Shown here in pieces: positions 52,077 to 56,984 of a stretch of 64,000 nt of DNA; the stretch's first letter is position 1; each line of letters starts with the position of its first letter. The position numbers and the translations under genes are program-made. Source of the DNA: Bacillota bacterium (GTDB lineage: Bacteria > Bacillota > Clostridia > Acetivibrionales > JAMNXU01); NCBI GenBank assembly GCA_023623175.1, contig JAMNXU010000021.1, positions 70,912-134,911 of the forward strand, read 5' to 3'. Under the pieces are notes generated by a model. That model had not been told where the DNA came from. It saw only the letters and a list, made by a program, of their open reading frames with translations, and ran no database searches.

Positions 52077-52100
52077 AAAAGCCGGTTTCAGCCGGCTTTT
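52077..52100. terminator. bidirectional terminator overlapping the end of spoIIID
   Basis: AAAAGCCGG (52077-52085) pairs with CCGGCTTTT (52092-52100). The last three codons and stop of spoIIID form part of the hairpin, and yjbQ ends just before it on the other strand. Confidence 0.8.
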
Positions 52101-52351
52101 ATAGTTGATGATTCATATTTTGCCTTTGTAGCCTGACCGCCCCTTATGTGCCTCTCAGCCTTGTTTTCCTCAAGAACCTTTTTAACGTCCTCGGCAAGTA
52201 CAGGGTTTATCTTCATCAGCCTTTCAGTAACATCCTTGTGCACCGTGCTTTTGCTTATTCCGAACTGTTTGGCCGCCGCTCTTACGGTAGCTTTATTCTC
52301 AATTATGTAAGCAGCCAAACTAAGCGCTCTTTCCTCTATGTACCCTTTCAA
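52088..52351 (-). CDS. spoIIID: sporulation transcriptional regulator SpoIIID
   Basis: The 87-residue mother-cell regulator has the helix-turn-helix 'AAAKQFGISKSTVHKDVTERL' and the conserved 'RHIRGGQATKAKY' basic tail. SpoIIID tunes the sigma-E regulon and activates sigK. The TTG at 52351 is chosen because GGGGGG lies eight bases upstream and the protein then begins MKGYIEERAL, like the B. subtilis protein; the frame opens at 52384. A sigma-E-like promoter precedes it. Confidence 0.96.
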   Translation of the reverse strand: MKGYIEERALSLAAYIIENKATVRAAAKQFGISKSTVHKDVTERLMKINPVLAEDVKKVLEENKAERHIRGGQATKAKYESSTIKAG

Positions 52352-52436
52352 TAAAATATCCCCCCTTAAGGCACTTGGCAGCATGCATCAAGACAGCGCC
52401 AGCTGAAAATCTATGCCAAACAGGCTTGCTACAGTA

Positions 52437-52465
52437 TATATATGCGTGGAGGGGAGGCTATATGA
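52437..52465 (-). promoter_or_regulatory. candidate sigma-E promoter of spoIIID
   Basis: On the minus strand TCATATA (52459-52465), 14 bases, then CATATATA (52437-52444), close to sigma-E boxes (ATA-type -35, CATACAAT -10). The spacer holds CCTCCCCTCC, which is partly complementary to the GGGGGG ribosome binding site of spoIIID. Confidence 0.45.
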
Positions 52466-52499
52466 TTTTTCAGTAATAAACCATGACAAAAAAGCATGG

Positions 52500-52531
52500 T
52501 AAAAAGGAAGCAGCCGGAACGGCCGCTTCCC
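52500..52531 (-). terminator. terminator after the M23 peptidase gene
   Basis: On the minus strand GGAAGC-GGCCG pairs with CGGCT-GCTTCC (52525-52530 with 52506-52511, plus inner GCCG/CGGC), followed by TTTTTACC. Confidence 0.8.
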
Positions 52532-52558
52532 TTCCTGATAGCGCAATATTTCCGCCAG

Positions 52559-53422
52559 CTATTTCTTTAATTCAAGAATATCCATCGGATTGATGTGCTT
52601 GTTGTCCTTCAGTACCTCAAAATGCAGGTGGGTCGCCTCAGCGGCTTCAAAAGCCGCAGTATCTCCCACGGAACCTATGGGTTCGCCCTGTTTCACCCTC
52701 TGGTTTGGTACCACGGTATTGGTATCAGCAAGATTTGAATAAACCGTTTTGTAGCCATTCTGATGGTCAATCACCACGGTAATTCCAAAACCGGGATCCT
52801 TCTTTATCTCGGTTACAACGCCGTCAGCCACGGCCTTGACCACGGTGCTGATCGGCGCCGCGATGTCAATTCCACTGTGGGTTCTCCAGTCTTCGAGGGT
52901 TTTTGAATACACGAGCCTGTCCATTGCATATTCCTGTGTAACATCACCAATCACGGGCATTATAAAGTTGACGTTTTCATTTTCACCGGCTGCCGTTTTA
53001 TCATCCTTTGCCGCAACCTCGCCGGTGTTTGCAGGCTGACCTGGATCAGCTGAAGCCGAATCGCTTGATGTTGAAGCGCCAGCCACACCGGATCCGCTTT
53101 CTTTCGCCATGTCTTCTCCAGCTTCGCTTTTTTCGTCACTTTCCGTTACAGCCGCCATTGATTCTTCTTCCCCGGTGTCTTCCCAAAAGGCCGAGCTTTC
53201 GTAACCCTCGCCTTCCTGGTCGTAATCAAGTTCATTGTCAGCAATATCATAATCCGCGTCAAAATCAATCTTTGGGGATCTCAGATTGTATGTAGTGACA
53301 ACGGCCGCGGCCACGCCAACGATTGCTATGCACAGTACCAATACAACATAAAATCCCTTTCTATCGACAAACTCAGCCAAACGTTTTCCGAACGCCTTTT
53401 TTCCTGCAAACAGCTTTTTCAT
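52559..53422 (-). CDS. spoIIQ: SpoIIQ-like M23 (LytM) peptidase
   Basis: The 287-residue protein has a basic cytoplasmic start, one membrane helix (about 25-46), an acidic, Ser/Ala/Glu-rich linker (50-150) and a LytM domain (about 155-285). In Bacillus SpoIIQ is a forespore protein that binds mother-cell SpoIIIAH across the intermembrane space and supports engulfment. Unlike the B. subtilis protein, the zinc motifs are complete here: HSGIDIAAP (H-x3-D) and HLHFEV. An active endopeptidase is therefore likely, as in other Clostridia. It lies 69 bases below spoIID, with a sigma-F-like promoter and a hairpin that pairs with its ribosome binding site in between. Confidence 0.92.
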   Translation of the reverse strand: MKKLFAGKKAFGKRLAEFVDRKGFYVVLVLCIAIVGVAAAVVTTYNLRSPKIDFDADYDIADNELDYDQEGEGYESSAFWEDTGEEESMAAVTESDEKSEAGEDMAKESGSGVAGASTSSDSASADPGQPANTGEVAAKDDKTAAGENENVNFIMPVIGDVTQEYAMDRLVYSKTLEDWRTHSGIDIAAPISTVVKAVADGVVTEIKKDPGFGITVVIDHQNGYKTVYSNLADTNTVVPNQRVKQGEPIGSVGDTAAFEAAEATHLHFEVLKDNKHINPMDILELKK

Positions 53423-53433
53423 AAATAATTAAA

Positions 53434-53484
53434 CACCTCCATGCATTATTGTTGCCACTTCTGGCATTAATATACATGGAGGTG
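53434..53484 (-). promoter_or_regulatory. sigma-F-like promoter inside a ribosome-binding-site-occluding hairpin (spoIIQ)
   Basis: On the minus strand GTATA (53471-53475), 14 bases, then GGCAACAAT (53448-53456), matching sigma-F GYWTA-N15-GGNNANANT with one base less spacing. The region is enclosed by a perfect 10-base inverted repeat, CACCTCCATG (53475-53484) and CATGGAGGTG (53434-53443), with an inner TGCCA/TGGCA stem. The 3' arm is the ribosome binding site of the M23 gene. Initiation at the promoter would begin at about 53441, leaving out the 5' arm. A weak T-rich tail follows, so a terminator role for spoIID is the main alternative. Confidence 0.65.
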
Positions 53485-53491
53485 CAATAAT

Positions 53492-54493
53492 TTATTGCAG
53501 ACTATTTATATCGGTTATGTCAACACCCGTGTAATAATGTTTTAAAATCTCTTCATAGGTACTTCCGTTTTGCGCCATGAACTGCGCGCCCCTCTGGCTC
53601 ATCCCAACGCCGTGACCGTAACCCGTGGTTATTATTTCAAGCGTGTCTTCATCTTTTTCTTCAATCCTGAAATTGGCTGATTTCAGCGAAAAAATTTCCC
53701 TGAATTCGGTACCTTTCAGTACAATTCCGCAGACATCGATGTTTCTTACCCTGCCTCCCACAGTGTAATCAATGATTTTCAAGCCTTCGGGCAAGTCTTC
53801 TTCCCTTATGTTAAAAGCGCCGTATCTGCCTCTGAGGCGCTCAATGAAGGCTTTTTTGCTTATTTCCACGCGGCTGGTGTATTCCTTCCCGGTTTCGTCT
53901 CCCCTGCTTTCCACGCTGACATGGTAGGGTTGATATTCTCCGGCCCAGACTTCAGTGGCGTCTTCGGTCCTTCCTCCGCCATTTGCGTGGTACAGCGGGC
54001 ATATGGGCATTCCGTTGTACGTAAGTATCATGCCACGGGTTTCATTTACAGCGCGGATAATTTTATTCCAGTAAAAATACGCCGAAATAAGTCCCCATTT
54101 TTTATATGCCTCATCCCTGGAAATCCACGCCTGGCAGCACGTTGCCTCGGAACACAGATCCACGTCGGGATGCTCGTCCTTCTTTTCCTGGCTTGTTATT
54201 TTTGCATAGGCGTAGGAACGGGCAGCCACGGCCTGGGCCTTCAAAGCCTCCGTTTCAAACGCCGCGGGCATTTCCGCCGCGACCACGCCCCTGAGATATT
54301 CCTCCAGTTCCATTTCCTCAACCCTGTTTTCCCGTTTTACAAGGAGTTTTACGCTGACCCGGGGGCTTTCTTCCTCTTCGGTAATATCGGGTGGTTTGAC
54401 ATTATTGACCGAGCATCCCTTTACTATCAGCATGGGAAAAATGATAATCAGCACCACAAAAACAGACAAATAATAAGTTATGTATTTCATCAT
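53492..54493 (-). CDS. spoIID: stage II sporulation protein D, lytic transglycosylase
   Basis: The protein has about 333 residues with one N-terminal membrane helix or signal anchor (about 5-27) and a SpoIID domain. The catalytic Glu region reads LRGVVAAEMPAAFETEALKA, followed by AVAARSYA, then YHANGGGRTEDA and the C-terminal GYGHGVGMSQRGAQFMAQ. SpoIID cleaves peptidoglycan glycans at the septum during engulfment, working with SpoIIM and SpoIIP. The frame opens at GTG 54514; ATG 54493, preceded by AGAGGACCGG, is preferred, with a second ATG next to it. It lies between murA and the SpoIIQ-like gene, as in B. subtilis, and has a sigma-E-like promoter. Confidence 0.95.
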   Translation of the reverse strand: MMKYITYYLSVFVVLIIIFPMLIVKGCSVNNVKPPDITEEEESPRVSVKLLVKRENRVEEMELEEYLRGVVAAEMPAAFETEALKAQAVAARSYAYAKITSQEKKDEHPDVDLCSEATCCQAWISRDEAYKKWGLISAYFYWNKIIRAVNETRGMILTYNGMPICPLYHANGGGRTEDATEVWAGEYQPYHVSVESRGDETGKEYTSRVEISKKAFIERLRGRYGAFNIREEDLPEGLKIIDYTVGGRVRNIDVCGIVLKGTEFREIFSLKSANFRIEEKDEDTLEIITTGYGHGVGMSQRGAQFMAQNGSTYEEILKHYYTGVDITDINSLQ

Positions 54494-54543
54494 CCGGTCC
54501 TCTGCCAATTTCACATTTGCTTTACAAAAAAAATTCCTTATAA

Positions 54544-54573
54544 ATTATATTCGGGACCGGAAGAATAATATGA
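54544..54573 (-). promoter_or_regulatory. candidate sigma-E promoter of spoIID
   Basis: On the minus strand TCATATT (54567-54573), 15 bases, then AATATAAT (54544-54551). The -35 is a good sigma-E match and the -10 agrees with CATACAAT at six of eight positions. It lies in the short gap after murA. Confidence 0.5.
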
Positions 54574-54594
54574 TTGGCTTCGGAACCGCAGTTT

Positions 54595-55857
54595 TTAGTC
54601 CTCGACCCTGACAATGTCTGCGCCGAGTTTCCTCAGCTTTTCATCAAAATTCATATATCCGCGGTCAATATGTTCAATATCGGTTATTTCCGTAGTGCCT
54701 TCGGCTACAAGACCGGCCAAAACCAGGGCGGCTCCGGCTCTCAGGTCCGTAGCCCTGACGGTGGCGCCCATGAGTTTGTCGGTACCTTCAATAACAGCGC
54801 TCCGGCCTTCCACTTTTATTTTCGCTCCCATTCTTTTAAGCTCGCTTATATACATAAACCGGTTATCAAACACGGTTTCAATCAATATGCTGGTGCCCGA
54901 CGCAACGCTCAGAAGCGCAGCCATCTGGGATTGCATATCCGTAGGAAAGCCCGGGTACGGGTGGGTCTTGATATCCACGGCCTTCAGCGGTTTCCCCGCC
55001 CTTACGTGTATGCTTGTAAGCTCTTCGGAAATCTCCACGCCGGCTTCGCGCAGCTTGGCGCTGACCGGTTTCAAATGATCAGGCACAACGTTTTCTATTA
55101 TCACATCGCCGCCGCTGATGGCAGTGGCTACCATGAAAGTGCCCGCTTCTATCCTGTCGGGTATAACCGCATGGGTAACGCCTTTTAACTCCTTTACGCC
55201 GTTGATCCTGATAGTATCGGTGCCCGCGCCTTTAATATCCGCGCCCATGGAAGTTAGAAAAGTCGTCAAATCCACGATCTCCGGTTCAATAGCCGCATTT
55301 TCAATTATCGTCTGGCCTTCGGCAAGAACCGCGGCCATTAAAATATTCTCAGTAGCCCCCACGCTGGGAAAATCGAGGTAAATTCTGCTTCCCCTGAGCC
55401 TCCCCCTCGTTTTTGCAATAATATAACCATGGCCCTGGACAATGTCCGCTCCCATGGCCGCAAATCCTTTTAAATGGAGGTCTACGGGGCGATTGCCTAT
55501 GGCGCAGCCACCGGGAAGCGAAATTTTCGCCATTCCCTGCCTTGCCAGCAAAGGTCCCATTACAAGAAAAGAAGCCCTCATCTTGTTAACCAGTTCATAT
55601 GGAGCAACGGTGTTCGTTATATTTCCCGAATCAATTATCAGCCTGTTCTGTCCTTCCTCAAGCCTGACCCTTGCCCCGAGGCATTCGATCAGTTCGCACA
55701 TGGTTCGGACATCATTCAGGCAGGGTATTTCTTCTATTGTGCTTTTTCCGTCGGTAAGCAGCGACGCCGCAATGATGGGCAAAACCGAGTTCTTTGCGCC
55801 GCTGGCTCTTATCCGCCCCCTGAGGGGGGTTCCCTTGTTTATCAGGAATCTGGGCAC
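54595..55857 (-). CDS. murA: UDP-N-acetylglucosamine 1-carboxyvinyltransferase
   Basis: The 420-residue enzyme transfers enolpyruvate from PEP to UDP-GlcNAc, the first committed step of peptidoglycan synthesis. The fosfomycin-target Cys is in [18 protein letters not shown] near residue 117; [15 protein letters not shown] and the C-terminal [14 protein letters not shown] are intact. The GTG at 55857 is chosen because GGGAGAAAACAA precedes it and it gives the usual N-terminus; the frame opens at 55884. It needs UDP-GlcNAc, whose source is in question given the degenerate GlmU. Confidence 0.97.
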
Positions 55858-55923: not shown

Positions 55924-56685
55924 TCAATATTCCGTTGTAATTACCGGCGTTGCGAGCCAAATGTAGGTTTTTCCTTCATGCAGGTTGTTGCGCATTGCCA
56001 GGTTCAGGTTCATTTTCTTTCCTTCCACCTCGACATGGTTGACAAAATGAGGCGAATAGGCAGAAATACTTACCAGGTTTCCGTCCTCAATCCGGCTGAC
56101 TTCCCTGGCATTGACCATGGCAAACATTCTTTGCGCAATTTCCGCCCAGGAATCTTTTTCAATTTCCGAATCAAAACTTCCGGTAATTGAAAAATTCACA
56201 TCAGTTTTGTCCGCTAAGCCCCTGAGCGCGTTCAAAGCCTTTTCTGCCGAGGCTTTCAAAAGGCTTCGGCCATTTTGCTCCGTCAAACTTATAGTCCCGG
56301 TAAACACCGCTCCGCCGGAAGGCTTCCTGTCGGCCTGGACGCCGAGCCGGACCGACCGTCCATCTTCCAGCGCGGCGTTTATTTCAACCCTGCTTATGTT
56401 GTCATCCTCTTCGCTGGTTTTGGAAAAGCTTTCGTCCCTTAAAACTCCCAGCCTGCCGGCAATAATGTCGGCAACCTTTTCTATCCCGTAATTCATGCAA
56501 AAATTTCTGTCAAGCCTGCACCATACATAACACTCGCTGCTCACAATATTAGCTCCCGACCCGTCGAAAGCCCTGGCAAGGGCAGGAGCGTTCACCAGGT
56601 CGGAAGCATGCATATTATATAAAACAAATGTAAAAAATAAAGTCAAAGTAAATGCAATAAATACTAATAAAGCTTTCTTTTTCAT
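55924..56685 (-). CDS. ywmB: YwmB family exported protein (TATA-box-binding-like)
   Basis: The 253-residue protein has an N-terminal membrane helix or signal peptide (about 5-28) followed by an alpha/beta region matching the YwmB family by position (just upstream of murA and spoIID) and general pattern ('SECYVWCRLDRNF', 'NINFSITGSF'-like segments, 'KTYIWLATPVITTEY' at the end). Its role is unknown; the B. subtilis protein has a TBP-like fold. The ATG has GGGGG five bases upstream. That G-tract is one arm of an inverted repeat enclosing the -10 box of a sigma-F-like promoter, suggesting forespore expression. Confidence 0.8.
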   Translation of the reverse strand: MKKKALLVFIAFTLTLFFTFVLYNMHASDLVNAPALARAFDGSGANIVSSECYVWCRLDRNFCMNYGIEKVADIIAGRLGVLRDESFSKTSEEDDNISRVEINAALEDGRSVRLGVQADRKPSGGAVFTGTISLTEQNGRSLLKASAEKALNALRGLADKTDVNFSITGSFDSEIEKDSWAEIAQRMFAMVNAREVSRIEDGNLVSISAYSPHFVNHVEVEGKKMNLNLAMRNNLHEGKTYIWLATPVITTEY

Positions 56686-56690
56686 TACGT

Positions 56691-56744
56691 CCCCCGACTT
56701 AAGTGGTTTACTAAAATTATTGCCTTACACTTCGGGGGGTATAC
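56691..56744 (-). promoter_or_regulatory. sigma-F-like promoter with its -10 box inside a ribosome-binding-site-occluding hairpin (ywmB)
   Basis: On the minus strand GTATA (56740-56744), exactly 15 bases, then GGCAATAAT (56716-56724), a full match to the sigma-F consensus GYWTA-N15-GGNNANANT. In the same stretch CCCCCGA (56732-56738) pairs with TCGGGGG (56691-56697), with an inner CACT/AGTG stem. The 3' arm is the ywmB ribosome binding site. No T-tract follows, so it is not a terminator. RNA begun at this promoter (about 56709) would lack the 5' arm. Confidence 0.65.
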
Positions 56745-56984
56745 ATGCTATGTTTTTAAAACAGCGCTATTTACTGGTTCTTTGCCCGACGATGCGCGGA
56801 AATTCGTTAATTGCGCATGCCTTTGCGAAACTCCTGAAATAAATCATCATATTTACATGAATAAATTGCCTTACACAAACAGATTGCCGGCTTTTATTTA
56901 AAACCATTACGTTATCAAAAATTGAAAAAATAAAGCTCTCCCGCTGCCGGGAAAGCATTTTGCCGCAAAATGTCATTAAGTTTC
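56745..56984. other. gap upstream of ywmB without a visible gene
   Basis: This is part of a 441-base gap between the FN3/SLH gene and ywmB. It holds no credible frame; a short frame at 56767-56976 has no ribosome binding site and no family features. No terminator for the surface-protein gene was recognised here. Confidence 0.35.

Follow-up and report, generated by a model that had tools for sequence, protein, structure and literature searches.

How might a gene of the forespore be kept from being translated in the mother cell when it stands directly behind a gene that the mother cell transcribes? Sporulation relies on proteins whose synthesis is confined to one of the two sister compartments, yet the genes for them often follow closely on genes of the opposite compartment with no terminator between. 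The stretch of DNA analysed here (the window, 64,000 nucleotides of a Bacillota bacterium) contains such an arrangement on its minus strand, where spoIID ends at 53492 and the frame of a SpoIIQ-like gene starts at 53422, leaving a gap of 69 nt. The gene order is murA-spoIID-spoIIQ-spoIIID-mbl, and the gene names are backed by this order together with the family matches. The SpoIIQ-like protein reaches 71.5 bits against NCBIfam NF053738 (Bacillus SpoIIQ), below the curated cut-off of 250, so its label is based on synteny and the M23 domain. Judging by homology, spoIID is a mother-cell sigma-E gene. A sigma-E-like promoter, TCATATT-N15-AATATAAT with two mismatches, lies 5' of it (54485-54600, minus strand) and fits mother-cell expression. 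In C. difficile, spoIID is under sigma-E and spoIIQ under sigma-F control (PMC3789822).

The gap between the two genes is occupied by an inverted repeat and a promoter, which we list together with the surrounding genes:

53492..54493, minus strand: spoIID, the upstream gene (TIGR02870, 332.8 bits, above cut-off)
53475..53484, minus strand: 5' arm of the hairpin, CACCTCCATG, complementary in sequence to the Shine-Dalgarno (SD) region
53471..53475, minus strand: -35 element GTATA of a sigma-F-type promoter, its first base common to the 5' arm; unchanged across an alignment of 47 leaders from the order
53448..53456, minus strand: -10 element GGCAACAAT, in the loop; present in 29 of 29 relatives, in one of them with a mismatch
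53439..53443, minus strand: predicted start region of the forespore transcript, about 7 nt 3' of the -10 element
53434..53443, minus strand: 3' arm of the hairpin, CATGGAGGTG, holding the SD sequence GGAGGTG (from sequence and fold)
52559..53422, minus strand: spoIIQ-like gene, an M23 peptidase with an N-terminal membrane segment (PF01551; HMM of relatives; gene order)
52088..52384, minus strand: spoIIID, the 3' neighbour that fixes the syntenic block (TIGR02844, above cut-off)

An earlier note on this DNA had described a perfect 10-base repeat with the ribosome binding site in its 3' arm, and this description is accurate: the arms CACCTCCATG and CATGGAGGTG (53475-53484 / 53434-53443, minus strand) form a perfectly complementary 10-bp inverted repeat, with the SD core GGAGG at 53440-53436 inside the 3' arm and the spoIIQ ATG at 53422-53420. 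The stem in fact exceeds 10 bp through the added pairing UAUAUU/AAU, an inner UGCCA-GAAG-UGGCA hairpin and an outer AAUUA/UAAUU pairing, and the fold of the leader RNA has an energy of -37.6 kcal/mol (z -6.0), which none of 200 shuffles equalled. Rfam returned no family above the gathering threshold, the single chance match scoring 13.1 bits against 105. The promoter, GTATA-N14-GGCAACAAT, is placed between the arms and overlaps them in part; with its 14-nt spacer it matches the sigma-F consensus (-35 GYWTA, spacer 14-16, -10 GGNRANANT), sigma-F and sigma-G being inseparable by sequence. The sigma-F-like promoter sequence noted earlier is present and is conserved in relatives, and GTATA-N14-GGNAACAAT occurs without mismatch once in the 2.85-Mb genome. 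Its placement between the arms needs a correction: the -10 element does lie in the loop, but the 5' arm ends with the G of the -35 GTATA. The spacer ATTGTTNCC is itself complementary to the -10 sequence GGNAACAAT (53448-53475), as it is at the homologous sites in the leaders L068, L276 and L278. From the position of the promoter, forespore RNA is predicted to begin at 53441 +/- 2, that is, at the SD sequence.

Would a hairpin in this position distinguish between the two kinds of transcript? As a measure we used the opening cost, defined as the free energy required to unpair the six bases of the SD sequence. It amounts to 16.6-18.5 kcal/mol in read-through RNA with 50-250 nt of upstream sequence. 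When the 5' end is moved along the leader, the cost drops from 17-20 to at most 3.6 kcal/mol past the 5' arm, and none of the 5' ends tested within 36 nt upstream of the SD sequence exceeds this value. RNA from the predicted start region has a cost of 0.6-3.2 kcal/mol, and RNA beginning 0-2 nt before the SD sequence one of 0.6-0.8 kcal/mol. Among 564 starts sampled from the window and 0.8 Mb of the same genome (about 0.86 Mb), the spoIIQ SD ranks first with 18.7 kcal/mol (median 3.1, 99th percentile 12.4), a few other top-ranked starts resembling mis-called terminators. The second-highest SD occlusion of the 564 belongs to a veg homologue (PF06257; L329, about 7393, minus strand), which has a sigma-A promoter, TTGACA-N17-TATAAT, with a spacer CACCCCATCTT complementary to the SD region AAGATGGGGTG.

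We consider it probable that the element is a translational insulator embedded in a promoter, which lets RNA from its own promoter be translated and blocks read-through RNA, so that SpoIIQ is confined to the firing of its own forespore promoter. A transcript entering from upstream, from spoIID or another gene, would carry the 5' arm, which would fold onto the spoIIQ SD and prevent translation. Sigma-F RNA polymerase would start at the internal promoter, near 53441, and the resulting RNA, beginning at or just before the SD sequence, would lack the 5' arm and be freely translated. Production of SpoIIQ would then be tied to the place and time at which its own promoter fires, and restriction to the forespore would be the benefit under selection. 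The core of this mechanism, in which read-through RNA would hide the ribosome binding site and RNA from the internal promoter could not, is strongly supported by the modelled folds and by the comparisons that follow, while compartment-specific control is what we infer from it.

Within the order, SpoIIQ is present in 60 of 60 relatives searched. All 29 loci that were read first show the same promoter with a spacer of 14, the SD sequence 7 nt past the -10 element and a long stem spanning them; the whole arrangement recurs there with identical spacings. The six positions facing the SD sequence vary, yet they pair at 4.73 of 6 on average, compared with 2.51 for neighbouring 6-mers (48 leaders). 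Covariation in the outer stem is uninformative within the order, shuffles equalling the observed values, because promoter and SD sequence constrain both arms; the weight of the argument therefore falls on the relocation of the arm between clades and on one clade that includes a metagenome-assembled genome deposited as Thermoclostridium. In three leaders with no detectable spoIID just upstream (L068, L276, L278) and in one behind a terminator (L015), the promoter persists and the opening cost is 3.6-6.5 kcal/mol. That the arm appears weaker in leaders without spoIID supports a block on read-through.

The position of the 5' arm differs between clades and is always 5' of the predicted start. In the Thermoclostridium-like clade the anti-SD lies within the -35/-10 spacer, in the order GTATA-AATCCACTTCCGTT-GGCAATAAT...GGAGGTGGA. 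Across its eleven sequences 94% of cells are paired, the apical pair 30-46 occurs as CG, GC, UA, AU and GU, which amounts to double compensatory changes, and the covariation score is reached by none of 500 shuffles. Compensatory changes, which the earlier note proposed to look for across related Clostridia, are seen in this clade, the outer stem of the order being uninformative. Geosporobacter (L082, L084) and several uncultured Clostridia (L099-L101, L105, L107) have leaders with still other arms. Some of these hairpins stand behind genes other than spoIID: an LrgB-like gene in L099 and L100 and a gene for a dockerin-type protein in L101, as named from a reading of their C-terminal sequences. 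The occurrence of the hairpin behind non-sporulation genes points to insulation against upstream transcription in general, and on these sequences the hairpin looks like a guard against any upstream transcript.

The comparison was widened to 165 distinct spoIIQ leaders, drawn from named genomes and from the spoIID loci of 245 genomes of the class. Loci that lacked good matches were excluded; for some divergent SpoIIQ proteins, start positions called automatically are unreliable. For a hairpin call we required an opening cost of 6 kcal/mol or more that was reached by no more than 3 of 60 versions with the upstream part dinucleotide-shuffled. Relatives hold either a hairpin or an ordinary terminator, hardly ever both. 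With spoIID upstream and no intrinsic terminator, the hairpin is present in 80 of 115 leaders (median cost 9.4 kcal/mol). None of the 27 leaders in which a terminator separates spoIID from the promoter has it (median 2.3, maximum 5.4); the count would be 1 of 28 if L184 were included, whose weak 'terminator' of 44 nt (-6.9 kcal/mol), located in coding sequence, was inspected and classed as no terminator. This exclusion has a Fisher p of 3e-12 over the 165 leaders; it persists among 60%-identity clusters (26.5:20.5 without a terminator against 0:18 with one, p 1e-5) and 50%-identity clusters (p 0.02). Since the thresholds were fixed after a first look at the leaders, the exact p-values call for care; a rank test free of the hairpin threshold gives 9e-11. 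As controls from the same loci, 1 of 65 spoIIID starts (1.5%) and 13 of 88 spoIID starts (15%, and 4% among those with a strong SD) pass the hairpin test. Neither device is found in 35 of the 115 leaders with spoIID upstream, which counts against the insulator reading. Leaders L216, L217, L220, L227, L232, L085, L090 and L094 have spoIID upstream and neither a terminator nor a significant hairpin.

The earlier interpretation, under which RNA reading through from spoIID would fold while internally started RNA would be free, keeps its core of folding and release in the light of the 5'-end scan, the mutual exclusion with terminators, the relocation of the arm with compensatory changes and its weakening in leaders without spoIID; its compartment-specific part is less secure, the hairpin also standing behind non-sporulation genes. 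Could the stem nevertheless be something simpler? A plain spoIID terminator, which would stop read-through at the level of transcription and was the alternative named in the earlier note, has in its favour a strong stem followed in the window by the T-rich UUUAAUUAUUU. We rejected it as very unlikely: no terminator-like site was found in the window region 52400-54700, the stems of nearly all relatives are followed by GGAAAAAG or GGAAAUUG, an A-rich tail and no U-tract, and genuine terminators, where present, sit 5' of the promoter in genomes without the hairpin. Translational coupling, by which ribosomes finishing spoIID would open the stem and spoIIQ translation would depend on them, draws on the spoIID stop codon, which in the window lies only 7 nt before the 5' arm; a ribosome stopping there might unpair a small part of the stem, a point that also counts against the insulator reading. 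Coupling too is highly improbable, for the gaps between spoIID and spoIIQ reach 288 nt in hairpin-bearing leaders, which is too far for coupling, hairpins also stand behind unrelated genes, and a private forespore promoter would be pointless.

The palindrome might instead act mainly as DNA, either as an extended sigma-F promoter or as the symmetric operator of a regulator, with RNA folding incidental. The spacer TTGTTGCC, complementary to the -10 element, is conserved through the order and is retained where the outer arm is lost; indeed the ATTGTTNCC/GGNAACAAT complementarity persists in L068, L276 and L278, where the outer anti-SD arm has decayed, and this survival of the inner palindrome suggests that part of the structure may serve the promoter as DNA. 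As an account of the whole it is unlikely, however: the variable outer arm follows complementarity to the SD and has no fixed sequence, in other clades the anti-SD has its place within the spacer and shows compensatory changes, and the hairpin is missing where a terminator is present. That SD-rich sequence beside a promoter paired with something by chance is scarcely credible; short GGAGG matches are common and 1.5-15% of control starts pass the same test, but the z of -6.0, first rank among 564 starts, recurrence in relatives and exclusion with terminators all speak against it. The reading of the element as a translational insulator within a promoter is the one we retain.

Is the design peculiar to spoIIQ? 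Of 27 sigG leaders, each from a genome of the order (L289-L315), 25 carry an ACCTCC-like anti-SD in the spacer between GTATA and GGCAATAAT, with an opening cost of 8.9-17.1 kcal/mol; for RNA shortened to the SD sequence the cost is 3.4 or less. In one leader (L292) the anti-SD ACCCTC is matched to the SD GAGGGT, and the sigG leader of the genome analysed here (L295, C13:15716-15800) has the spacer anti-SD too. A further gene with a related leader lies within the window:

55924-56685, leader 56686-56750, minus strand: DUF1779 (YwmB-like) gene with a sigma-F/G-like promoter, GTATA-N15-GGCAATAAT

Here the SD region, TCGGGGG, pairs with the spacer CCCCCCGA, a signal that weakens once 120 nt of RNA upstream are included. 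In relatives the pairing is between CATGTATATCCC and GGGGATATACATG and takes in the start codon. An anti-SD inside or just 5' of a core promoter could be a general clostridial insulation device, an alternative to terminators that makes translation conditional on a start at the gene's own promoter, used most by forespore genes (spoIIQ, sigG, the DUF1779 gene) and also by some vegetative ones (veg); we hold this generalization tentatively, at slightly less than an even chance.

If true, the scheme amounts to a simple sequence rule whereby a promoter licenses the translation of its own transcript. It predicts across species that a spoIIQ leader will have a terminator or an anti-SD arm and not both, and it would aid genome annotation and promoter prediction and offer a compact insulator for synthetic gene circuits.

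Related devices are known from several systems. In phage T4 late genes, long early read-through RNA hides the ribosome binding site in a hairpin, and short late transcripts start inside it; the likeness is the hairpin over the binding site in long RNA, while T4 differs in its phage late promoters and in a logic that is temporal and not compartmental. In the transposase genes of IS10, IS50 and IS200, external read-through RNA occludes the binding site and an internal start avoids occlusion; fold-back of external RNA is common to both, but these are mobile elements in which terminal repeats provide the arm. The parallel with T4 drawn in the earlier note stands as a likeness, but T4 is not the sole closest precedent, as the same proposal had been made for B. 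subtilis sigG. According to a passage in PMC5942855 (citing Masuda 1988 and Sun 1991), a hairpin of 20+ bp at sigG (spoIIIG) was proposed to block translation of spoIIGA-sigE read-through RNA, and it cannot form in PsigG RNA. Read-through spoIIGA-sigE-sigG RNA has been detected in B. subtilis and C. acetobutylicum (PMC3789822). On the account of the former passage, sigG is, like spoIIQ, a forespore gene behind an operon transcribed elsewhere, with a sigma-F/G promoter between the genes. The present locus shares with that type an upstream gene on the same strand, spoIID, with no terminator-like site before the promoter, and an SD, that of spoIIQ, that falls within the 3' arm (by fold; 18.7 kcal/mol). 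Its promoter consensus is present and conserved and RNA from the predicted start is computed to be open, so that the promoter's own RNA may likewise lack the 5' arm. Our literature search found no description of such a hairpin for spoIIQ, nor did we find a comparative case of this kind made for the earlier members. The spoIIQ element is thus a conserved further case of the device already proposed for sigG, differing from it in the gene pair (spoIID-spoIIQ), in a predicted start at the SD itself and in arms that flank or overlap the promoter elements. The rule of 'terminator or hairpin' and the placement of an arm inside the promoter appear to be new.
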